A stretch of 14,012 nt of DNA. Source: an uncultured bacterium (lineage in GTDB: Bacteria > Patescibacteria > Paceibacteria > UBA9973 > Zambryskibacteraceae). The notes under the pieces were generated by a model. The model worked only from the letters and a program-made list of their open reading frames with translations, did not search any database and had not been told where the DNA came from. The position numbers and the translations under genes were made by a program. Positions 5,361 to 14,012 of this stretch are shown piece after piece (the first letter of the stretch is position 1; every line of letters begins with the position of its first letter). The stretch covers positions 1 through 14,012 of the forward strand of contig CAIXDB010000097.1 of the NCBI GenBank assembly GCA_903918125.1, in the 5' to 3' direction.

Positions 5361-5364
5361 AATC

Positions 5365-6264
5365 ATGATCAACAATCTCACAGATGAAAAAATAAAATTC
5401 ATGACGGAGAAGGCGCGGGACATTCGCGTGTCCATTATCGAAATGCTCGTGGCGGCCGGCTCGGGACATTCCGCGGGACCGCTTGGCATGGCGGACGTGT
5501 TCACCGCGCTCTATTTTCACATCCTCAAACACGACCCGAAAACGCCGGAATGGCCGGGACGCGACCGACTCATCCTGTCGAACGGTCACATCTGTCCGGT
5601 GCTGTATGCGACCATGGCGCACGTCGGATATTTTCCGGTTGATGAGCTTTTGACGCTTCGCAAATTCAAGTCCCGCTTGCAAGGTCACCCGCATCGCGAC
5701 TTTTTGCCGATGCTCGAAACGAGTTCGGGACCCTTGGGCGCCGGGCTTTCGCAGGCCGTCGGCATGGCGCTCGGCGACCGCATGGATCGCGGCGTGACGT
5801 CCGGCAGGTTTTTCTATTGTCTCATGGGCGACGGCGAGCTCGACGAGGGACAAAACTGGGAGGCGGCGATGCTCGCATCAAAGGAGAAACTCGGCAACCT
5901 CATCGCTATCGTCGACCGCAACAACATCCAAATCGACGGCTACACCGAGGACGTCATGCCGCTCAACTCTGTCACGCACAAATTCGAAAGTTTTGGTTGG
6001 CACGTCGAGGAGATTGACGGACACAACTTTTCGGAAATTATCGCCGCAGTCGGGCGTGCACAGGCAGTCTTCGACGCCCCAAGCATGATTGTGGCGCGAA
6101 CCATTCCCGGCAAAGGCGTGTCGTTCATGGAGCGCGACTACAAATGGCACGGTAACCCGCCCGGCACGGAAATCCCCGGAGAACCGCCGGCAAAGGAACA
6201 AGCGGCGATAGCACTCCGCGAGTTGCGAACATTGGGAGGACAGATAACAAGTGAACATGAATAA
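5365..6264 (+). CDS. Transketolase, N-terminal (thiamine diphosphate-binding) subunit
   Basis: This is the N-terminal half of a split transketolase, which moves two-carbon units between sugar phosphates using thiamine diphosphate. In the 299-residue product, AGSGHSAGPLGMADV (31-45) and SGPLGAGLSQAVGMA are cofactor and substrate blocks. GDGELDEGQNWEA begins at 155 and leads to DRNNIQIDG (184-192), the metal/diphosphate-binding motif with the conserved GDG and Asn. IPGKGVSFME and the WHG segment fit the end of the domain. It pairs with the C half at 6558; between them sits a small membrane gene. The ATG at 5365 is four bases after the previous stop, and longer upstream readings would overlap that gene. 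A related 1-deoxyxylulose-5-phosphate synthase is less likely, because the split with these motifs is typical of transketolase. Confidence 0.93.
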   Translation: MINNLTDEKIKFMTEKARDIRVSIIEMLVAAGSGHSAGPLGMADVFTALYFHILKHDPKTPEWPGRDRLILSNGHICPVLYATMAHVGYFPVDELLTLRKFKSRLQGHPHRDFLPMLETSSGPLGAGLSQAVGMALGDRMDRGVTSGRFFYCLMGDGELDEGQNWEAAMLASKEKLGNLIAIVDRNNIQIDGYTEDVMPLNSVTHKFESFGWHVEEIDGHNFSEIIAAVGRAQAVFDAPSMIVARTIPGKGVSFMERDYKWHGNPPGTEIPGEPPAKEQAAIALRELRTLGGQITSEHE

Positions 6265-6272
6265 TAAAAAAT

Positions 6273-6551
6273 ATGGAACCAACAAAATATAAAAAAATAA
6301 TTATTTCTCTCGTTTTTGGATTTGCATTTCCTTTAGCACTTTGGTTTCCTCTTGGAGGATTGATACAGGTTGAGTGGGATAATTATACTTTAGAAAGTTT
6401 AATATTACTTGTAATTTTTATTATTTTCTTTGTGAGTTATTTTTGGTTAGTGCATAAATATAGAAAATTTATTTCCATATTATATTTTATATTGGGTGTT
6501 TTTAGCACAATAACTTTCATTTTGTTTGCTCTAAATCACAATTGGTTTTAA
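6273..6551 (+). CDS. Small three-span membrane protein, AT-rich
   Basis: The 92-residue product is almost entirely hydrophobic, with predicted spans near residues 9-31, 41-60 and 66-88 joined by short charged loops (HKYRK). I recognise no family. The ATG lies 8 nt after the transketolase N half and the stop is 6 nt before the C half, so it interrupts two subunits that must work together. Its base composition stands out: 63 of 240 bases are G or C over 6301-6540 (26%), against 35 of 60 at 6601-6660 inside the next gene. That contrast, repeated in the gene at 5133, points to acquisition or to a class of membrane genes with distinct codon use. No ribosome binding site is seen. Confidence 0.7.
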   Translation: MEPTKYKKIIISLVFGFAFPLALWFPLGGLIQVEWDNYTLESLILLVIFIIFFVSYFWLVHKYRKFISILYFILGVFSTITFILFALNHNWF

Positions 6552-6557
6552 AATATC

Positions 6558-7559
6558 ATGCTTAACGAATCACAAAAACTGAACCCGAAATTGTGGAACA
6601 AGAATGTCGAGCAAGTGCCGATACGAAACGGTTTCGGTGAGGGTTTGGTGCTCGCGGGCGATGCAAACCCGGACGTGGTGGCGCTGTGTGCGGACTTGGT
6701 TGAGTCGACGCGCATGGACGCATTTCAGAAAAAATTCCCCGAGCGTTTCATTGACGTCGGCGTGGCGGAGCAGAATCTTGCATCGACAGCATCCGGTCTC
6801 GCGGCAATGGGAAAAATTCCGTTTATCTCGAGCTATGCAATGTTTTCACCGGGCAGAAACTGGGAGCAGATTCGCACGACCATCGCCTACAACAATCGCG
6901 CGGTAATCATTGCCGGCTCGCACGCGGGTGTCAGTGTCGGTCCGGACGGCGGGACACACCAGGCAATCGAGGACATTGCGCTCATGCGAGTCCTTCCGCG
7001 CATGACTGTCATCTCGCCGTGCGACGCTATCGAGGCGCGCAAGGCGACTCTCGCCTCAATCGACTCGACCACGCCCGTCTACATTCGCCTCTCGCGCGAA
7101 AAATCTCCAATCATCACGACCGACGACACGCCGTTTGAAATCGGAAAAGCGCAACTGTATTACGGCAGTATGGGAGACAAAGCTGACGTGGGGATTATCG
7201 CGACCGGAGCACTTGTCCATCGCGCACTGAAAGTTGCCGAGCAGCTGAAGCGCGACGGCATTTCGGCAAAAGTGCTCAACGTCGCCACCATCAAACCGCT
7301 CGACGTCGAAGCTGTTACGGCACTGGCTCACGAGTGTGGCGCAATCGTCACCGTCGAGGAACATCAAATCGCCGGCGGTCTCGGAGGTGCTGTCGCAGAG
7401 TGCCTCGCCGAGTTACTGCCAACCCCTATCGAATTCATCGGCGTGCACGACCAGTTTGGTCAGTCCGGTACGACCGCGGAACTTCTCGAGCACTACGGCA
7501 TGGGCGAGTTGCACATTCTCGCAGCTGCGAAAAAAGTAGTAGGAAGAAAAAGTCTGTAA
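6558..7559 (+). CDS. Transketolase, C-terminal (pyrimidine-binding) subunit
   Basis: This is the second half of the split transketolase. The 333-residue product contains the pyrimidine-binding domain with GVAEQN, where Glu71 contacts the thiamine ring, then FISSYAMFSPGRNWEQIR and GSHAGVSVGPDGGTHQ, which match the substrate-binding loop. The C-terminal part, with GALVHRALKVAEQL and VEEHQIAGGLGGAVAE, is the transketolase C domain. The length is normal for the separate subunit. It is the last gene of the operon and ends 2 nt before a strong bidirectional terminator. The paired N half is upstream at 5365, so an active enzyme would be a heterotetramer of the two products. Confidence 0.94.
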   Translation: MLNESQKLNPKLWNKNVEQVPIRNGFGEGLVLAGDANPDVVALCADLVESTRMDAFQKKFPERFIDVGVAEQNLASTASGLAAMGKIPFISSYAMFSPGRNWEQIRTTIAYNNRAVIIAGSHAGVSVGPDGGTHQAIEDIALMRVLPRMTVISPCDAIEARKATLASIDSTTPVYIRLSREKSPIITTDDTPFEIGKAQLYYGSMGDKADVGIIATGALVHRALKVAEQLKRDGISAKVLNVATIKPLDVEAVTALAHECGAIVTVEEHQIAGGLGGAVAECLAELLPTPIEFIGVHDQFGQSGTTAELLEHYGMGELHILAAAKKVVGRKSL

Positions 7560-7561
7560 CA

Positions 7562-7607
7562 AAAAAAGATGGGCATCATCCTCGCGAGGATGATGCCCAT
7601 CTTTTTT
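7562..7607. terminator. Perfect bidirectional terminator between the tkt operon and the PfkB gene
   Basis: The 46 bases are perfectly self-complementary about a centre at 7584/7585. A GC-rich stem (GATGGGCATCATCCTCG and its complement) is flanked by an A-run on one side and a T-run on the other, so it works in both directions. The kinase stop codon overlaps its right edge. Confidence 0.95.
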
Positions 7608-8613
7608 AAATTTTCTTCAAAACATAATCCGCCGGAGCATTTTTTAGATATTCTTGGAGTTTGTCAGCAGTGAGCAGACCTTTCTGCGCGCCGATTTGTT
7701 GGACGACAGACATTGAGTTCACCGGTCCCCAGGTGAGCGCTTCATCGAGCGACTTGCCCATTGCCAGGCACGCGACAACGGTCGAGAAAAATGCGTCGCC
7801 TGCACCGGTGCGTTCGACCGGATCGTGCGGATAGACGGGAATGAAAAAGAAATCGTCGGCAGAAACGGTCGTGTCCAATCCGTACGCGCCGTCAATACCG
7901 TCGGTCACGAGTACTACTTTCGGTCCGAGTTTCGAGAGACCGGTCATCAACACTTTCACGTCGCGACTCGATAACCCAAGAATTCTCTGTGCTTCCTCGA
8001 CGTTACAACACATGGCATGAGCGCGACTATATATATGTGCGAGTTTTTCTGCGCCCTGTTTGATATCAAAAATCCCGGGTTGAAAAGCAAGTTTGACGGA
8101 CGGATTTTGGTCGAGGTACTGTGCGATGTCTTCGTACAAATGAAATGAATTTTCGCCGAGCGAGCTGACGTACAGCCATTTCGGCGCGTCGTCACCCTGC
8201 GGAATGCCGTCGAGCGTGTATGCGTATTTTTCGTGTTTGATTAAAATGGTGCGGTCGACGTCGTACCAAAGCACGTAGTGGTAGTTGGTTTTCATTCTGG
8301 AAGCGACTCGCACCAGGTCGGTCGCAACATTGTTTGATGTAAATTCCGCAACGCAATCGCGTCCGTTTTGATCATCGCCAACGTACGTCAAAATTCCCGA
8401 TGCAAGTCCGAGTCGCGATACCGACACCGTCGCGTTGGCAGCGTTTCCCACCGCGTTGCAGACGGTCACTGACTCGTACGGAACTTTGTCGCCGTAGCGC
8501 ACTGCAAGTTTGCAATTTTTTTTGTCCGCGTCGCACAACAACTCTGCGTCGGTCAATCTGATAAAAGCATCGATAACTGTGTCGCCAATGGCGAGAACAT
8601 CTAATTTTTTCAT
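7606..8613 (-). CDS. PfkB-family carbohydrate kinase
   Basis: This 335-residue protein is a ribokinase-like (PfkB) sugar or nucleoside kinase. GNAANATVSVSRLG (56-69) matches the first PfkB signature, and RTGAGDAFFSTVVACL (268-283) matches the second, with GAGD forming the anion hole and Asp273 the catalytic base. VTDGIDGAYG (237-246) fits the ATP-site strand. The acceptor cannot be read from sequence: ribokinase, fructokinase, 6-phosphofructokinase (PfkB type) or adenosine-like kinases share these motifs. It lies between a transketolase operon and an aldolase gene, so a role in phosphorylating a hexose, pentose or fructose 6-phosphate is reasonable but inferred. The start is fixed by the promoter six bases upstream (TATAAT). 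Confidence 0.88.
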   Translation of the reverse strand: MKKLDVLAIGDTVIDAFIRLTDAELLCDADKKNCKLAVRYGDKVPYESVTVCNAVGNAANATVSVSRLGLASGILTYVGDDQNGRDCVAEFTSNNVATDLVRVASRMKTNYHYVLWYDVDRTILIKHEKYAYTLDGIPQGDDAPKWLYVSSLGENSFHLYEDIAQYLDQNPSVKLAFQPGIFDIKQGAEKLAHIYSRAHAMCCNVEEAQRILGLSSRDVKVLMTGLSKLGPKVVLVTDGIDGAYGLDTTVSADDFFFIPVYPHDPVERTGAGDAFFSTVVACLAMGKSLDEALTWGPVNSMSVVQQIGAQKGLLTADKLQEYLKNAPADYVLKKI

Positions 8614-8697: not shown

Positions 8698-9141
8698 TTA
8701 ACGAGGTTTTAAATCCTGGAAGAACACTACGATGTGTTTTTCATCTGACAAAGGTGCTTCTCCCAATATATTTGAGAATGATTGAATGGTGAAAAGTCTC
8801 CCGGAGATAACATACGTATTTTTACGTCGAATTCCAAAGGTTGTTTTTTGTTCACAACGGGCTCCGCATTTTTCGGCAACATCCTGAATGATTGCTAAAT
8901 TTTTCTCCACGTCGCCGGAAATTTTGATTCTCACATGAAGAGTTTTTTTGAGAAAAGCCATCAATTTTAATGCTTTGCTTCTGCAAGTCCTGCACGTCTT
9001 GATGTGGTTTGCCCACATACTGTATTCTTGGGTGGAGGGAGTCATCTCTTGGGTGATTTTCTGCCCATTCGCAATCATGGAGTGTATTCTCTCTGTAGGT
9101 GAAACATATCCACACTTTCTGAAATTTTTTTCAAAAAACAT
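8698..9141 (-). CDS. Small HxxxCxxC zinc-finger protein, function unknown
   Basis: The 147-residue protein contains HIKTCRTC at 46-53, giving His46, Cys50 and Cys53 in the HxxxCxxC spacing of anti-sigma (ZAS/zf-HC2) domains. Additional cysteines at 10, 92 and 96 could complete a metal site. Unlike many anti-sigma factors it has no membrane span. The remainder (about 67-147) alternates beta-like and helical segments, with VRIKISGDVEKNLAIIQDVAEKC resembling a small alpha-beta fold, and I recognise no family there. No sigma factor lies nearby. The gene is divergent from the aldolase gene, with 55 nt between start codons, and has its own terminator. A weak GAAAGG lies about 13 nt before the ATG. 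A cytosolic regulator is possible but unproven. Confidence 0.68.
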   Translation of the reverse strand: MFFEKNFRKCGYVSPTERIHSMIANGQKITQEMTPSTQEYSMWANHIKTCRTCRSKALKLMAFLKKTLHVRIKISGDVEKNLAIIQDVAEKCGARCEQKTTFGIRRKNTYVISGRLFTIQSFSNILGEAPLSDEKHIVVFFQDLKPR

Positions 9142-9197: not shown

Positions 9198-10090
9198 TGA
9201 AAACCAACACTAAAACATTACGCGAAGTTGTGCGCGAGGCACAGGAGAAAAAAGTTGCCGTCGGACATTTTAATATTTCAAACCTCGAGGGACTCTGGGG
9301 TGTGTTCCGCGCGGCGCAAGCGCTCAACGTACCGATAATCATCGGCGTGTCGGAGGGTGAGCGAGATTTCGTCGGCGTGCCACAAGTCGCGGCGCTGGTA
9401 AAAAGTTTGCGCGACGAGTTCGACTACCCGATTTTTCTCAACGGCGACCACACGTATTCGTTCGACCGCGTCAAAGAGGTCATTGACGCCGGTTTTGACT
9501 CGGTTATCATCGACGGTGCAGCACTTTCTTTTGACGAAAATATCGCGTTGACAAAAAAATGCGTCGAGTACGCGCGCGCAGTGACCAAGCAAACCGGTCG
9601 CGACATTCTCATCGAAGGCGAACTCGGGTTTATCGGTCAGTCTTCGAAAGTTCTCGACGCCATTCCCGACGGCGTTCTTCTCGACGACAAATCATTGACC
9701 GACCCGGCAAAAGCAAAAGAGTTCGTCACGGCGACCGGTATCGACATGCTCGCACCGGCAGTGGGGAATTTCCACGGCATGTTGCGCGGAGGTGTCGACC
9801 CGAAACTGAACATCGAGCGCGTACGCGAAATAGCCGAAGCGACCGGCGTACCATTGGTGCTCCACGGCGGTTCGGGCAATTCGCAGGACGACTTCACACA
9901 ATCCATCGCACAAGGGATTGCCATCGTGCACATCAATACCGAAATTCGCGTGGCGTACAAACAAGGCCTGACGCTCGCGCTTCAGGAAATGCCCGACGAA
10001 GTGGCGCCGTACAAGTTTCTCAAAGGCGCGGTCAAAGCGGTCCAGGACGTGGTTACGAAAAAGTTAAAAATTTTCAACGGGATTCAATAA
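9197..10090 (+). CDS. fba: Fructose-bisphosphate aldolase, class II
   Basis: This zinc-dependent aldolase cleaves fructose 1,6-bisphosphate to dihydroxyacetone phosphate and glyceraldehyde 3-phosphate. In the 297-residue product, AVGHFNISNLEG (21-32) matches the usual AFNxxN start and NGDHTYS carries Asp84 and zinc ligand His85. EGELG (140-144), NFHG with His193, and VLHGGSGNSQDDF with His223 complete the metal and phosphate site. INTEIR (247-252) matches INTDLR. The HLDHG block and the TSHG block are both altered, so a related tagatose- or ketose-bisphosphate aldolase is possible. The ATG at 9197 is favoured over a longer reading from 8948 because the promoter lies immediately before it and the family N-terminus starts here. 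Confidence 0.9.
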   Translation: MKTNTKTLREVVREAQEKKVAVGHFNISNLEGLWGVFRAAQALNVPIIIGVSEGERDFVGVPQVAALVKSLRDEFDYPIFLNGDHTYSFDRVKEVIDAGFDSVIIDGAALSFDENIALTKKCVEYARAVTKQTGRDILIEGELGFIGQSSKVLDAIPDGVLLDDKSLTDPAKAKEFVTATGIDMLAPAVGNFHGMLRGGVDPKLNIERVREIAEATGVPLVLHGGSGNSQDDFTQSIAQGIAIVHINTEIRVAYKQGLTLALQEMPDEVAPYKFLKGAVKAVQDVVTKKLKIFNGIQ

Positions 10091-10118
10091 CTCTATTAAA
10101 TTTTTTTTGCATGAAATA

Positions 10119-10148
10119 ACCGGCGAACACCTTGTGGTGTGCGCCGGT
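10119..10148. terminator. Hairpin between convergent fba and the membrane orphan
   Basis: A 13-bp stem with one mismatch (ACCGGCG..., 10119-10131, with 10136-10148) and a TTGT loop lies between two convergent stop codons. No T-run follows directly on either strand, although an eight-T run lies at 10101-10108, so it is a probable but imperfect bidirectional terminator. Confidence 0.55.
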
Positions 10149-10166
10149 CTTGGTCGAAGTGGGGGT

Positions 10167-10658
10167 CTACTGAAATACTCTCAAGGTGCTGAAGATTTTG
10201 ATGTACCCCTTCAACCTCTCAACGAGCATTCGAACTTCTTCCTCGGTCTTGTCGTAGGGTCCAAGTGGACCCGCCCCGATTGAATGTACAAGAATCGGGA
10301 CACTGTCAAAAAAGTTCAGAAAGATTGTTGTGTCGCCGACCGTCTTTTTTGAGCATGCCAACCGAATCTCAATCGTTTTGGTGCATATCAAACGCACCAT
10401 GCTAACTGAGATTTCACTTCGACAAGCTTTGGCGGTATCATCAAGTTCTCGAAAAATAACATTGGCTACCGCTTCCTGCTCGTCGAGCAAACGTTGCCGA
10501 TTATCACCAATGAGAATTGGTCGGGGATGAGTGGACGGCGCCATACCCACCGTTCTTTTCTGTTTTCGTTTCTCCACGATTTTTTCGTGGATATTGAGAC
10601 TAATCATTAGAAGTCCCAACACCACAATTCCTATCGCCAACATTCCCGGTTCTAACAT
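10167..10658 (-). CDS. Membrane-anchored hypothetical protein, 163 aa
   Basis: The protein begins with one hydrophobic span at about residues 5-22 (MLAIGIVVLGLLMISL), followed by a basic stretch (EKRKQKR), so the rest should lie in the cytoplasm. The soluble part has a helix around RQRLLDEQEAVANVIFREL and later strands rich in Ile, Val and Phe, with cysteines near the middle. I recognise no family. The start is well supported: GGGAGG lies 9 nt before the ATG, and a strong promoter sits upstream. It is one of the orphan genes here that use a normal leader and ribosome binding site. It stands alone between fba, with which it converges, and the small membrane gene at 10762, from which it diverges. 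Confidence 0.8.
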   Translation of the reverse strand: MLEPGMLAIGIVVLGLLMISLNIHEKIVEKRKQKRTVGMAPSTHPRPILIGDNRQRLLDEQEAVANVIFRELDDTAKACRSEISVSMVRLICTKTIEIRLACSKKTVGDTTIFLNFFDSVPILVHSIGAGPLGPYDKTEEEVRMLVERLKGYIKIFSTLRVFQ

Positions 10659-10746: not shown

Positions 10747-10762
10747 TGCTATACTTATCGTA
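10747..10762 (+). promoter_or_regulatory. Promoter of the small gene at 10762, predicted leaderless
   Basis: TATACT at 10750-10755 is preceded by TGC, an extended -10, and followed by six bases before the ATG at 10762. No good -35 is seen. It is divergent from the strong promoter at 10697-10725. Confidence 0.65.
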
Positions 10763-11046
10763 TGAAAAAGTCCGAGCAAACATACGAGAAAGATGTCGAG
10801 TTCGAACAGGACGAGGAACTCCAAACTCTTGCCATTCCGAAACGACCGGAAGAAAAACCGGAGTCGATTATCGCGCAAGAAATGCTCAAACACAAAGTTG
10901 TGCCCTCGGCAAAACACGCAAACTGGGTACTCATCGGCGTGAGCATTCTTTGTTTGCTCGGTGCACTCATCATGTTTGGCTTGTACACCACCACTCCGGC
11001 GTACGTTCCACCACATCCGCAAATAATCGTACATCCGGCGCACTAG
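10762..11046 (+). CDS. Small single-span membrane protein, 94 aa
   Basis: The N-terminal 50 residues are charged and probably disordered (many Glu and Lys). One span follows at about residues 55-75 (VLIGVSILCLLGALIMFGLY), then a short Pro/His tail (PPHPQIIVHPAH). The charge pattern puts the acidic N-terminal part in the cytoplasm and the tail outside. I recognise no family. The ATG is set by the extended -10 six bases upstream. It lies just ahead of the L25 gene, which has its own promoter directly after this stop codon. Confidence 0.75.
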   Translation: MKKSEQTYEKDVEFEQDEELQTLAIPKRPEEKPESIIAQEMLKHKVVPSAKHANWVLIGVSILCLLGALIMFGLYTTTPAYVPPHPQIIVHPAH

Positions 11047-11083: not shown

Positions 11084-11727
11084 TGACTACATTAGAAATA
11101 ACTGAGCGAAAAGCGTCCGAAAATGTTGGCGCACTCCGAAAAGCCGGCCTCATGCCCGCTGTTTTTTACGGCAAGAAAACTCCATCCACGCCGGTGACGC
11201 TCGTCCAAAAAGATTTCATCAAAGTCTGGAAAACTGCCGGCGAGTCGGGTGTGGTGACACTCAAAGGTGCCAAGCAGTCCCACGACGTGCTCATTACCGC
11301 AGTTGATATTGACCCGGTTTCAGACATCGTTCGACACGCCGACTTTTACGTATTTGAAAAAGGCAAGAAAATTGAAGTGTCCGTTCCGCTCGAATTCATC
11401 GGTATCGCTCCGGCTGTGAAAGATCTCGGCGGTTCGCTTGTTAAAGTGCTTCATGAAATCAAAATCTCCGCTTCACCGGAACATCTTCCACACGATATCA
11501 AAGTCGACATTTCGTCGCTCGCTACATTTGAAAGTCAGATTCTTGCAGGCAATATTCCAATGCCGGCCGGTGTGACACTCGTGGAAGATCCTGAGGAAGT
11601 CGTGGCTAGCGCCGCCGAGCCGAAGGCTGAGGAAGTCGAAGAAACCGCACCTGTGGATCTGTCCGCAATCGAAGTTGAGAAGAAGGGTAAAAAAGACGAG
11701 GAAGCTCCTGTCGAGCCTGCCGCGTAA
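11083..11727 (+). CDS. rplY: Large-subunit ribosomal protein bL25 (TL5/CTC type)
   Basis: bL25 binds 5S rRNA in the large ribosomal subunit. This 214-residue product is the long CTC/TL5 form: an N-terminal 5S-binding domain of about 90 residues, with the typical LRKAGLMPAVFYGKK (16-30), then a beta-rich second domain (about 95-180) with PVSDIVRHADFYVF and ISASPEHLPHDIKVDIS. A long acidic tail rich in Glu, Ala and Lys follows from about 180. The start is 11083, where MTTLEITERK matches the family and follows the promoter; a TTG reading from 11047 would begin at the -35 itself. The 186-bp structured element begins 2 nt after its TAA. Confidence 0.93.
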   Translation: MTTLEITERKASENVGALRKAGLMPAVFYGKKTPSTPVTLVQKDFIKVWKTAGESGVVTLKGAKQSHDVLITAVDIDPVSDIVRHADFYVFEKGKKIEVSVPLEFIGIAPAVKDLGGSLVKVLHEIKISASPEHLPHDIKVDISSLATFESQILAGNIPMPAGVTLVEDPEEVVASAAEPKAEEVEETAPVDLSAIEVEKKGKKDEEAPVEPAA

Positions 11728-11728
11728 C

Positions 11729-11914
11729 GAATTCCAAAATCTCTTTCTCGGTCACATGTTTTCCGAGACCGGAAATCGTCCCAGCGGACGATTTCCTTTG
11801 TCCTCAGCCTCGACTTGTCAATGAGCCCGTGTTGCACCGGGTCGTTGACAAGACCATGCTCGAGGCTTGCGGGGTCTCAGAAAACATGCGACACGAGACG
11901 AGATTTTGGAATTC
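11729..11914. repeat. Structured inverted-repeat element A
   Basis: The outer arms are 11729-11770 and 11873-11914, pairing at 34 of 42 positions. Between them lie two hairpins. The first is a perfect 11-bp stem (11771-11781 with 11786-11796, loop CAGC). The second is a longer stem built from AGCCTCGA (11806-11813) with its complement at 11860-11867, and CTTGTCAA (11814-11821) with TTGACAAG (11845-11852), capped by a GCCCG/CGGGT pairing. The left arm carries the 15-mer TCTTTCTCGGTCACA (11742-11756), whose complement recurs at 13362 and 13919. The element fills the space between the L25 gene and the coiled-coil protein gene, and its right end holds the likely -35 of that gene. I recognise no known family. 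Confidence 0.85.
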
Positions 11915-11940
11915 AGTTCATGTTTGTTATACTGTGGGCA
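11906..11940 (+). promoter_or_regulatory. Promoter of the coiled-coil/lytic transglycosylase gene, predicted leaderless
   Basis: TATACT (11928-11933) preceded by TGT is an extended -10, six bases before the ATG. A TTGGAA -35 (11906-11911, spacer 16) falls inside the right arm of element A. Confidence 0.65.
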
Positions 11941-13358
11941 TGCATCTCCCACGGTTTTTTTTGTTGTTGAAAGGTATGTTCGGCGTGCTTTGCGCGGTGT
12001 TGGTGTTTGGGTGCTTCGCGGTGTCGCTTGCTCACGCTCAGACCACGGACCAAACCGCAACTCCGACCACGGCTCAGACCGCCACACTCACTCCGCAACA
12101 GCAGGAGGCCGAGTACCAGGCCGAGCTCACTCAGACCGAAGCGGACATTGCCAAATGGCAAACTATTCTCAATAACACCAAAGCCGGCACTGCCTCGCTT
12201 CAGCACGATGCGGACGTGTTGAACGCTAAAATTCAGCAAGCAAAACTTTTCATCAAGCAAAAAAATATTGAGATTGCACAGTTGCAACAACAAATCGCCG
12301 ATAAAAACGCAAACATTGCGTCGCTCGAGGACCAGATCAACCAAGGTCACGACTCGCTCGCACAGCTCATCCGCCAATCAAATGAAATGGACAACTACAC
12401 CCTGCCGGAAGTGATTCTTGGTGCGCAAAACATTTCGGATTTTTTCAGCGACGTAGATACCTTTCAGGCGATTGATAAGTCGATGGCGGATTTGTTTGCC
12501 AAAATTCGCGCCACGGAAAATTTGACCGAGCAGGAAAAAGCGGCGCTTGCCGTGCAACAAAATCAGCAGGTCGACCTGGCGCAAGCGGCGGTTGTGCAAC
12601 AAAACCAAGTTCAGACGGATGAAAACCAGAAACAATATTTGATCACGGTCAACAAAACACAGGAAAAAACGTACGCCCAGGTGCTCGCAGACGAACAAGC
12701 CAAAGCGGCAAAAATTCGTGCGGCACTGTTCAGTCTCGCGGGTGGCACGTCGGCAATTTCATTCGGTGATGCGCTCACGTATGCGCAGGCGGCTGCGTCA
12801 AAAACAGGCGTGAATCCGGCATTCTTGCTCGCAATTTTGACCCAGGAGTCTAACCTTGGCGCCAACGTCGGCAAATGCTACCTCTCCGATCTGACCTCCG
12901 GATCTGGCTCGAGTGTCACGACAGGCAAGGTCTGGCCAAACTTGATGAAACCGACGCGCGACCTGCAGCCGTTCATCGCCATCACGCAGTCGCTCGGTCT
13001 CGACCCGCTGAAAACCGTCGTGTCGTGTCCTATTGCCGGCGCGGGCGGGTACGGTGGCGCGATGGGTCCGGCGCAGTTCATCGCCTCGACATGGCAACTG
13101 TTCGCCGATCGCTTGCAAGCGGTGCTCGGACATTTTGCCAACCCGTGGAATCCGCAGGACGCGTTCATGGCATCGTCTTTGTACCTTTCCGACCTCGGCG
13201 CAGTCAACGGTTCGTACTCGAGCGAACTTCGCGCGGCGTGTAAATACTACGGCAGTGGCGGGTCAACCTGCTCGTATGGCAGAAGCGTGGAAAACCTCGA
13301 AACGAACATTCAAAGCAACATCGACTACTTGAACCAATATGGCGTGGCGAAACAGTAG
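11940..13358 (+). CDS. Secreted coiled-coil protein with C-terminal lytic transglycosylase domain
   Basis: The 472-residue product has a signal peptide (about 1-33, cleavage after AHA) and a Thr/Gln linker. A long Gln-rich coiled coil follows (about 52-265); it includes LPEVILGAQNISDFFSDVD, which resembles the LL-G-S-FSDL hinge motif of PcsB/CwlO-type cell-wall hydrolases. The C-terminal domain (about 280-472) is a lysozyme-like lytic transglycosylase: LLAILTQESNLG with Glu303 as catalytic acid, then GAMGPAQFIASTW (373-385) and NPWNPQDAFMASSLYL (401-416), as in MltB-like enzymes. Four cysteines in this domain (313, 363, 434, 444) could form disulfides. The role is peptidoglycan cleavage, perhaps controlled through the coiled coil, as FtsEX controls PcsB. 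The ATG at 11940 gives the signal peptide and follows the -10 by six bases; an earlier in-frame ATG at 11829 would place element A inside the protein. Confidence 0.85.
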   Translation: MHLPRFFLLLKGMFGVLCAVLVFGCFAVSLAHAQTTDQTATPTTAQTATLTPQQQEAEYQAELTQTEADIAKWQTILNNTKAGTASLQHDADVLNAKIQQAKLFIKQKNIEIAQLQQQIADKNANIASLEDQINQGHDSLAQLIRQSNEMDNYTLPEVILGAQNISDFFSDVDTFQAIDKSMADLFAKIRATENLTEQEKAALAVQQNQQVDLAQAAVVQQNQVQTDENQKQYLITVNKTQEKTYAQVLADEQAKAAKIRAALFSLAGGTSAISFGDALTYAQAAASKTGVNPAFLLAILTQESNLGANVGKCYLSDLTSGSGSSVTTGKVWPNLMKPTRDLQPFIAITQSLGLDPLKTVVSCPIAGAGGYGGAMGPAQFIASTWQLFADRLQAVLGHFANPWNPQDAFMASSLYLSDLGAVNGSYSSELRAACKYYGSGGSTCSYGRSVENLETNIQSNIDYLNQYGVAKQ

Positions 13359-13360
13359 CT

Positions 13361-13383
13361 ATGTGACCGAGAAAGAAATTTTG
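13361..13383 (+). repeat. Solitary copy of the element core
   Basis: Positions 13362-13376 read TGTGACCGAGAAAGA, identical to the core of element B (13919-13933) and to the reverse complement of 11742-11756 in element A. Over ATGTGACCGAGAAAGA plus the next 7 bases it differs from A at one position. No second arm is found near it. It lies between the stop of the transglycosylase gene and the L31 promoter. Confidence 0.8.
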
Positions 13384-13385
13384 AT

Positions 13386-13424
13386 TTGCAAAAAAGCCCG
13401 GGTTTTGCTACTGTATCCAAGCAA
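13386..13424 (+). promoter_or_regulatory. rpmE2 promoter
   Basis: TTGCAA (13386-13391) and TACTGT (13409-13414) are spaced by exactly 17 nt, and TGC before the -10 makes it extended. Nine bases separate the -10 from the ATG, so the leader would be zero to three bases long. Confidence 0.65.
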
Positions 13425-13687
13425 TGAAAAAAGACATTCATCCACAAAACTATCGCCCGGTGCTTTTCATCGACAACTCAAACGACACTGAGTTTGTTAT
13501 TTCGTCGTCGGTTGCGACATCCGAGAAAGCGAAGGCCTCAGATGGTAAGGAATATCCTGTCTACCGACTGGAAATCTCCAGTGCTTCGCATCCGTTCTAC
13601 ACCGGTACCGAAAAGTCGCTCGACACCGCCGGTCGCGCCGAGAAATTCCGCGCACGTGTTGCAAAGGCCAAAGCGTCAAAAAAGTAA
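13424..13687 (+). CDS. rpmE2: Large-subunit ribosomal protein bL31, type B
   Basis: The 87-residue protein begins MKKDIHPQNYRPVLFID, the usual start of type B L31, and contains SSASHPFYTG (53-62), the family signature. It has no CxxC zinc motif, which separates type B from the zinc-binding type A. The C-terminal tail is rich in Lys and Ala. bL31 sits at the bridge between the ribosomal subunits. In bacteria that swap L31 forms, type B is used when zinc is scarce; here no type A copy is in the window, so it may be the only one. A short terminator and a new promoter follow. Confidence 0.93.
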   Translation: MKKDIHPQNYRPVLFIDNSNDTEFVISSSVATSEKAKASDGKEYPVYRLEISSASHPFYTGTEKSLDTAGRAEKFRARVAKAKASKK

Positions 13688-13710
13688 CTTTTGTTAGTTG
13701 GTTTTGAGAG

Positions 13711-13730
13711 AGCGATGCGAGTCGCTTTTT
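13711..13730 (+). terminator. Short intrinsic terminator after rpmE2
   Basis: AGCGA (13711-13715) and TCGCT (13722-13726) form a short stem, extendable by G-U pairs, with a six-base loop and a TTTTT run. It lies just ahead of the TATAAT at 13735. Confidence 0.6.
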
Positions 13731-13731
13731 C

Positions 13732-13740
13732 TGTTATAAT
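13732..13740 (+). promoter_or_regulatory. Extended -10 promoter upstream of element B
   Basis: TGT followed by TATAAT (13735-13740) is a consensus extended -10. No -35 is visible. Transcription would begin near 13747, so the RNA would carry the whole of element B before the gene at 13965. An ATG at 13751 is followed at once by TGA. Confidence 0.6.
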
Positions 13741-13754
13741 AAACTTAGTAATGT

Positions 13755-13945
13755 GAAATTGAAATCTCGTTGAGTGTCGCAAGCTTTTTTGAGCCTCTCG
13801 CAGGAGCTTGGAAAATAACGACGCAGGCGTGCGTGGCACACGCCGAGGAGATTATTTTCCTGAGCGACGAGAGCGAGCAAAAATCGCACCAGCGATTTAT
13901 TGTGTGCTCAAAAAAGCTTGTGACCGAGAAAGAGATTTCAATTTC
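13755..13945. repeat. Structured inverted-repeat element B
   Basis: The outer arms are 13755-13794 and 13906-13945, matching at 34 of 40 positions. They extend outward past a one-base bulge (AATGT at 13750-13754, AACATT to 13951). Inside are a hairpin with GGAAAATAA/TTATTTTCC and inner GGCGTG/CACGCC pairs (13810-13860), and a smaller AAATCG/CGATTT hairpin (13881-13898). The core TGTGACCGAGAAAGA lies in the right arm (13919-13933), whereas in element A its complement lies in the left arm, so B is inverted relative to A. It forms most of the predicted 5' leader of the gene at 13965. Confidence 0.85.
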
Positions 13946-13964
13946 AACATTCAAAGACACAAAC

Positions 13965-14012
13965 ATGGACCTCGAAAAATACCTACAAAATAATAAGACG
14001 TCATACCTTGCC
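13965..14012 (+). CDS. 5' end of a gene, possibly peptide chain release factor 1
   Basis: Only the first 16 codons are present, reading MDLEKYLQNNKTSYLA. That is too short to place by motif. The suggestion of release factor 1 rests on the frequent order rpmE-prfA in bacteria and on a loose likeness to the N-termini of release factors from Patescibacteria recalled from memory. There is no Shine-Dalgarno sequence before the ATG. The predicted transcript would begin near 13747 and so have a highly structured leader of about 220 nt. Confidence 0.35.
   Translation, partial: MDLEKYLQNNKTSYLA

Follow-up and report, generated by a model that had tools for sequence, protein, structure and literature searches.

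The window analysed here, a 14,012-nucleotide stretch of Patescibacteria DNA, holds two full copies and one solo arm of a strongly folded element. The full copies, A and B, are homologous and flank the transglycosylase and L31 genes in opposite orientations. We put at roughly 0.5 the probability that they belong to a lineage-restricted family of dispersed, intergenic palindromes of ~190 bp in which the folded single strand, most likely as RNA, is under selection. The conserved core of the elements, the matched changes in their stems and the solo arm carry this reading.

Extent, fold and homology of elements A and B

Element A (186 bp) runs from its L arm to its R arm over positions 11729-11914 of the minus strand, with a few additional closing pairs out to about 11726-11918, and element B (193 bp) occupies 13754-13946 of the plus strand. 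Both extents are drawn from the inverted-repeat list, the RNA folds and the alignment of the two copies, and both elements are intergenic, between open reading frames. The arms of A (11729-11770/11873-11914) are 42 nt long and 81% complementary, and those of B (13754-13794/13906-13946) are 41 nt long and 85% complementary. Among the 94 inverted-repeat pairs of the window, of which 25 were listed, these are the longest two.

The predicted RNA fold of 11725-11918 on the minus strand (A) has an energy of -118.6 kcal/mol (z -15.9), that of 13750-13950 on the plus strand (B) one of -94.1 kcal/mol (z -10.4); in neither case did any of 200 shuffles reach as low. The two predicted structures have a common architecture, in which a long closing stem leads through an internal loop to an apical three-way junction. 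Two hairpins leave the junction, one long and variable, the other small and holding AAATCG/CGATTT; in A the small one has 11 bp and spans 11771-11796 of the minus strand (RNA fold and hairpin scan). The arm list and the folds thus bear out the first-pass annotation, which had described a single architecture of long paired arms enclosing two hairpins.

The whole window was also scanned in 200-nt frames at 139 positions, 100 nt apart and with 25 shuffles per frame. First place went to the frame covering A, and the two frames cutting B ranked fourth and seventh. Ranks two and three fell near 7501-7700 and 10101-10300, areas that hold two other inverted repeats. One is a perfect 23-bp inverted repeat at 7562-7607 with no bases between its arms, located between two convergent genes and probably a bidirectional terminator. 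The other is a GC-rich hairpin (CCGGCGaACACC/GGTGTgCGCCGG) at 10119-10148, with the aldolase gene on one side and ORF 10167-10658 of the minus strand on the other; the fold of 10060-10170 on the minus strand has a z of -5.1.

The two strands of each element fold almost equally well (-118.6 versus -111.0 for A, -94.1 versus -90.6 for B) and differ little in their wobble pairs (2 versus 1 in A, 4 versus 3 in B), so that no strand preference is shown, and folds and wobble counts do not settle whether the active form is RNA or DNA.

Aligned in the sense minus for A and plus for B, the two elements score 109.5, whereas the best of 200 letter shuffles scores 52.5. In the opposite sense the score of 56.5 stays under its shuffle maximum of 60.5. 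Since only the matching sense beats the shuffles, A and B are homologous and oppositely oriented. That they flank the transglycosylase/L31 pair had been noted in the first-pass annotation and holds; their inverted arrangement is new.

An exact 15-mer that the annotation reported as shared by A and B, TGTGACCGAGAAAGA, was found again at 11742-11756(-) and 13919-13933(+), together with a third exact copy at 13362-13376(+) that had been missed. With up to three mismatches the window contains five matches, compared to 0.51 expected. The third copy belongs to a solo R arm at 13362-13387 of the plus strand, at the 3' end of the transglycosylase gene, which was delimited from the inverted-repeat list, the 15-mer search and the fold. 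It differs by one base from the 20-nt R core TGTGACCGAGAAAGAGATTT and is without an L arm partner; the fold of the surrounding stretch is weak (plus strand z -1.2, minus strand z -2.0), and the arm by itself has a z of 0.2. The opposite orientation of the full copies, taken together with this third, solitary arm, suggests dispersal.

The solo arm sits inside an 8-bp inverted repeat, ACAGTAGC/GCTACTGT, at 13352-13414 of the window, which takes in the stop codon of the transglycosylase and as a whole folds weakly.

A covariance model, R1, was built from A and B as had been proposed in the first-pass annotation. Within the window it recovers the two elements, each on both strands, and reveals no further copy in these 14 kb.

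A fixed core within changing stems

Each arm contains a 20-nt core. A (11737-11756, minus) and B (13919-13938, plus) share the R core TGTGACCGAGAAAGAGATTT without a single difference, positions obtained from the 15-mer search with the remaining bases read from the sequence. The L core AAATCTCGTnnnGTGTCGCA, located by an L core search, differs between the copies at 3 nt only, and appears as AAATCTCGTCTCGTGTCGCA in A (11887-11906, minus) and as AAATCTCGTTGAGTGTCGCA in B (13762-13781, plus); at up to three mismatches there are no L core copies in the window beyond these two. Within an element the two cores do not match perfectly. There are six mismatched positions in B, and the same six plus one in A, one of the core mismatch positions being a G-U pair in RNA.

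The stems on either side of the core behave differently. When the copies are compared without gaps, starting from the core in both directions and with G-U counted as a pair, all 8 pairs of the outer stem form in both copies, and 7 of the 8 are changed on both sides. All 13 pairs of the inner stem likewise form in both copies, 7 of them with both partners changed and 1 with a single partner changed. In the stem stretches compared outside the core, 21 of 21 positions are thus paired in both copies, and 14 of these 21 have changed on both sides. Conservation within the closing stem is lowest at the tips, which are still complementary. A MAFFT alignment with an RNAalifold structure has both sides changed in 20 of 46 predicted pairs; since it uses the same two sequences, it is not an independent proof, and with only two full copies known the covariation rests on a single comparison.

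Tips that change and stay complementary suggest that selection acts on the folded strand of A and B or that copying passes through it. An arm-to-arm correction process could also yield matched arms. It is disfavored, because such a process should have erased the core mismatches that the two copies share.

A fixed, asymmetric core inside covarying stems predicts one partner protein. It is conceivable, if rather unlikely, that A and B represent a new class of Patescibacteria elements, mobile or repeated, in which the folded strand is recognised, a dedicated protein reads the fixed asymmetric internal-loop core, and the other stems vary as long as they remain paired. If so, this would be a fold-guided type of element not met for Patescibacteria in the searches made. 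The genomes of Patescibacteria are small, and the family, should it be multicopy, could offer a handle on their regulation and rearrangement.

Genomic surroundings and searches for relatives

Element A starts one base past the stop codon of L25. Its other end overlaps a promoter-like site for the transglycosylase (TTGGAA-16-TATACT). The first hexamer, TTGGAA at 11906, lies within A's end and is followed after a 16-nt spacer by a TATACT -10-like box at 11928-11933 of the plus strand (consensus scan), six bases from the ATG at 11940, which we infer to be the transglycosylase start. The site is weak, since the consensus scan of the region found 2 promoter-like sites against 1.5 expected. In A's own sense, a TATAAC -10-like box lies upstream of the element at 11926-11931 of the minus strand, overlapping the plus-strand TATACT box; it was read by eye and is absent from the scan. 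As the sense strand of A is antisense to both neighboring genes, a cis role common to A and B is not obvious.

Upstream of B, a terminator-like hairpin follows L31 at 13706-13731 of the plus strand (11 pairs including wobbles, U-rich 3' side; z -2.8, 3 of 200 shuffles as good). Directly after it, an extended -10-like box, TGTTATAAT, was read by eye at 13732-13740 of the plus strand; the two-hexamer and consensus scan of the region lists neither feature. Because both precede B, the element may form most of a ~220-nt leader belonging to the gene after L31. From the next ATG (13965) runs a frame starting MDLEKYLQNN, of which 16 codons lie inside the window and which is presumably peptide chain release factor 1.

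A protein search with the transglycosylase scored 4609 proteins at E <=0.001. Among the matches listed, the nearest besides the window's own is 84% identical and another transglycosylase 77%, and the six organism-named entries in the best 120 of the 4609 are assigned to Paceibacterota, Minisyncoccia, the Parcubacteria group or the Patescibacteria group. The 15 distinct ORFs of the window that were scanned with Pfam include no transposase or integrase. Elsewhere in the window, no Pfam match was obtained for a 367-aa frame at 1729-2832 or for the ORFs 8698-9141(-), 10167-10658(-) and 10762-11046. The transketolase is split over two genes, an N-terminal part at 5362-6264 and a C-terminal part at 6558-7559, with a 92-aa ORF between the two halves (5362-7559).

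Rfam searches with the whole window (4227 families, gathering score) and with 11650-14012 (E up to 1) gave no match. Together with the common architecture and the two-sided changes in kept pairs, this supports the proposal of an unrecognised structured family in the first-pass annotation.

The exact 19-mer TGTGACCGAGAAAGARATT (one R) was sought in the genomes of 84,980 species (257 Gb), where it has 4 hits compared to 3.7 expected by chance. The records are titled Clostridia, Acidobacteriaceae, Tyzzerella and Lachnospiraceae; none is titled Patescibacteria, and none has an A/B-like fold as judged by eye. The absence of the exact word from Patescibacteria-titled records fits lineage restriction. 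The result covers the exact word in the Patescibacteria contigs searched and leaves room for diverged relatives.

In viral contigs the 18-mer matched 6 stretches, the two-arm pattern 1 and the L core 2, none with the fold. On a viral contig that matched the L core word (L014), repeated GTGTCGCA/TGCGACAC words at about 270-590 of the minus strand form a very long hairpin that is otherwise unlike A and B. Protein queries with the transglycosylase (twice), GAPDH, aldolase and L31 found no relative encoded on the viral contigs. By blastn, B has no match in plasmids, and the stretch around A matches three phage records over 28 bases of the L25 end (E 0.8). Protein searches gave no candidate for the minus-strand frame through B and one for the plus-strand frame of the element, none scoring at E <=10.

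The covariance model R1 was run on 14 sources, the window and 13 of 15 loci. Its six weak matches outside the window (best E 8e-4, in locus L007, where the searched word lies in a short hairpin) were judged to be chance. A run on four genomes gave no match and is uninformative.

In the literature searched, no text pairing Patescibacteria with 'miniature inverted-repeat' was found, nor the 15-mer TGTGACCGAGAAAGA. No description of a family of dispersed structured repeats in Patescibacteria came up either, in a broader literature that was sampled in part, several of the samples holding no paper on these bacteria. The combination of attC, integron and Patescibacteria led only to a river resistome study.

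Candidate explanations and known palindromic repeats

A classical MITE, i.e. a deletion derivative of an insertion sequence whose terminal repeats are bound by a transposase as duplex DNA, with the structure as a by-product, would account for the size, the intergenic sites, both orientations, the similar L and R cores and the solo arm. AATT is present on both sides of the outer stem in both copies and is readable as a 4-bp duplication; it is uninformative, because AATT is self-complementary and a perfect stem repeats it automatically. We nevertheless consider this origin unlikely. Transposon ends recognised as duplex should have fixed tips. Of the outermost 8 bp of A and B, 7 differ between the two copies with pairing kept, so the conserved terminal inverted repeats of a strict MITE are lacking. 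The distance from AATT to the core also differs between the copies, and no direct target duplication was seen adjoining their ends on reading the sequence. The lack of a transposase among the 15 ORFs scanned weighs little, as a MITE needs none nearby. The MITE-like label of the first-pass annotation is thus not supported in the strict sense; its other suggestion, a repeated structured RNA, fits better, although no strand preference speaks for it. A non-mobile RNA class, with A and B as paralogues that are close by chance, is again a low-probability reading. Such a small RNA or leader would use the internal loop as a ligand or protein site, in agreement with the two-sided pair changes that surround a fixed core, the -10-like boxes upstream of A and B in sense and the terminator-like hairpin before B. 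It sits poorly with the lack of an Rfam match, the antisense position of A relative to its neighbors and the presence of a solo R arm. For a widely kept RNA it would also be unusual that the core word occurs in no Patescibacteria-titled record, allowing for diverged relatives.

Integron attC sites are imperfect palindromes whose conserved boxes are asymmetric and whose apical stem varies, and they end in RYYYAAC/GTTRRRY boxes. In A and B, too, an asymmetric core is fixed while the stems on its two sides change freely, and the apical part is variable; in addition, single genes are set off by A, the solo arm and B. A site of this kind, recombined as folded single-stranded DNA by a recombinase that reads the asymmetric hairpin core while the stems vary, is improbable here. 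The conserved boxes lie away from the ends, the stem of B ends in ATGT/ACAT with no terminal RYYYAAC/GTTRRRY pair, the length exceeds what we take to be typical for attC, core genes instead of cassettes lie between the elements, and no integrase is found among the 15 ORFs scanned. Unrelated strong hairpins such as terminators, alike by chance, have hardly any likelihood left. Hairpins often follow genes, and the window has another perfect inverted repeat at 7562-7607, but the alignment score of 109.5 against a shuffle maximum of 52.5 refutes a chance likeness, and the identical 20-nt R core and the core mismatch positions common to both copies also speak against it. We presume that 6S RNA, hammerhead, kink-turn, DNA uptake sequence and bridge RNA do not apply; the same holds for a Tn3-like end at one position of A, which is not common to B.

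If A and B are a dispersed family selected as a folded strand, transcribed B would be a leader of the gene after L31, and transcribed A would lie in the spacer after L25. The element RNA would form a long hairpin, and a protein, for instance an RNase, could dock at its core internal loop or process the RNA there, which might tune the stability or processing of the adjoining mRNA. The two orientations and the solo arm could stem from occasional non-autonomous mobility or recombination.

Several enterobacterial and other repeats offer a comparison (PMC2229807). The Yersinia palindromic sequence YPAL/RU-2, enterobacterial and about 168 bp long, is like A and B in its size, intergenic location, high degree of base pairing and inverted repeats that are internal and not terminal; its ends are likewise without TA, and its targets lie in or beside dyad symmetry (PMC2229807). 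For YPAL, target duplications measure 3-26 bp and empty sites are known (PMC2229807), whereas no duplications were seen next to the ends of A and B. ERIC (IRU/RU-1, 127 bp) is also a dispersed intergenic element with an RNA hairpin, and an orientation-dependent effect on adjoining mRNA has been reported for it; unlike A and B it has TA at its ends, 7-bp terminal repeats and another length (PMC2229807), the sequences being compared here via Rfam. Correia/NEMIS elements have paired arms as well (24 bp in Correia), and RNase III cutting of their transcripts has been proposed, but they differ in their TA ends and target duplication, while the tips of A and B are variable (PMC2229807). Of the hallmarks of YPAL/ERIC-type repeats, a length of 100-200 bp, extensive base pairing and an intergenic position are found in A and B; a high copy number is a further hallmark, and the 14 kb contain two full copies and one solo arm. 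A and B are not to be filed as strict MITEs and appear to work most like YPAL or ERIC repeats.
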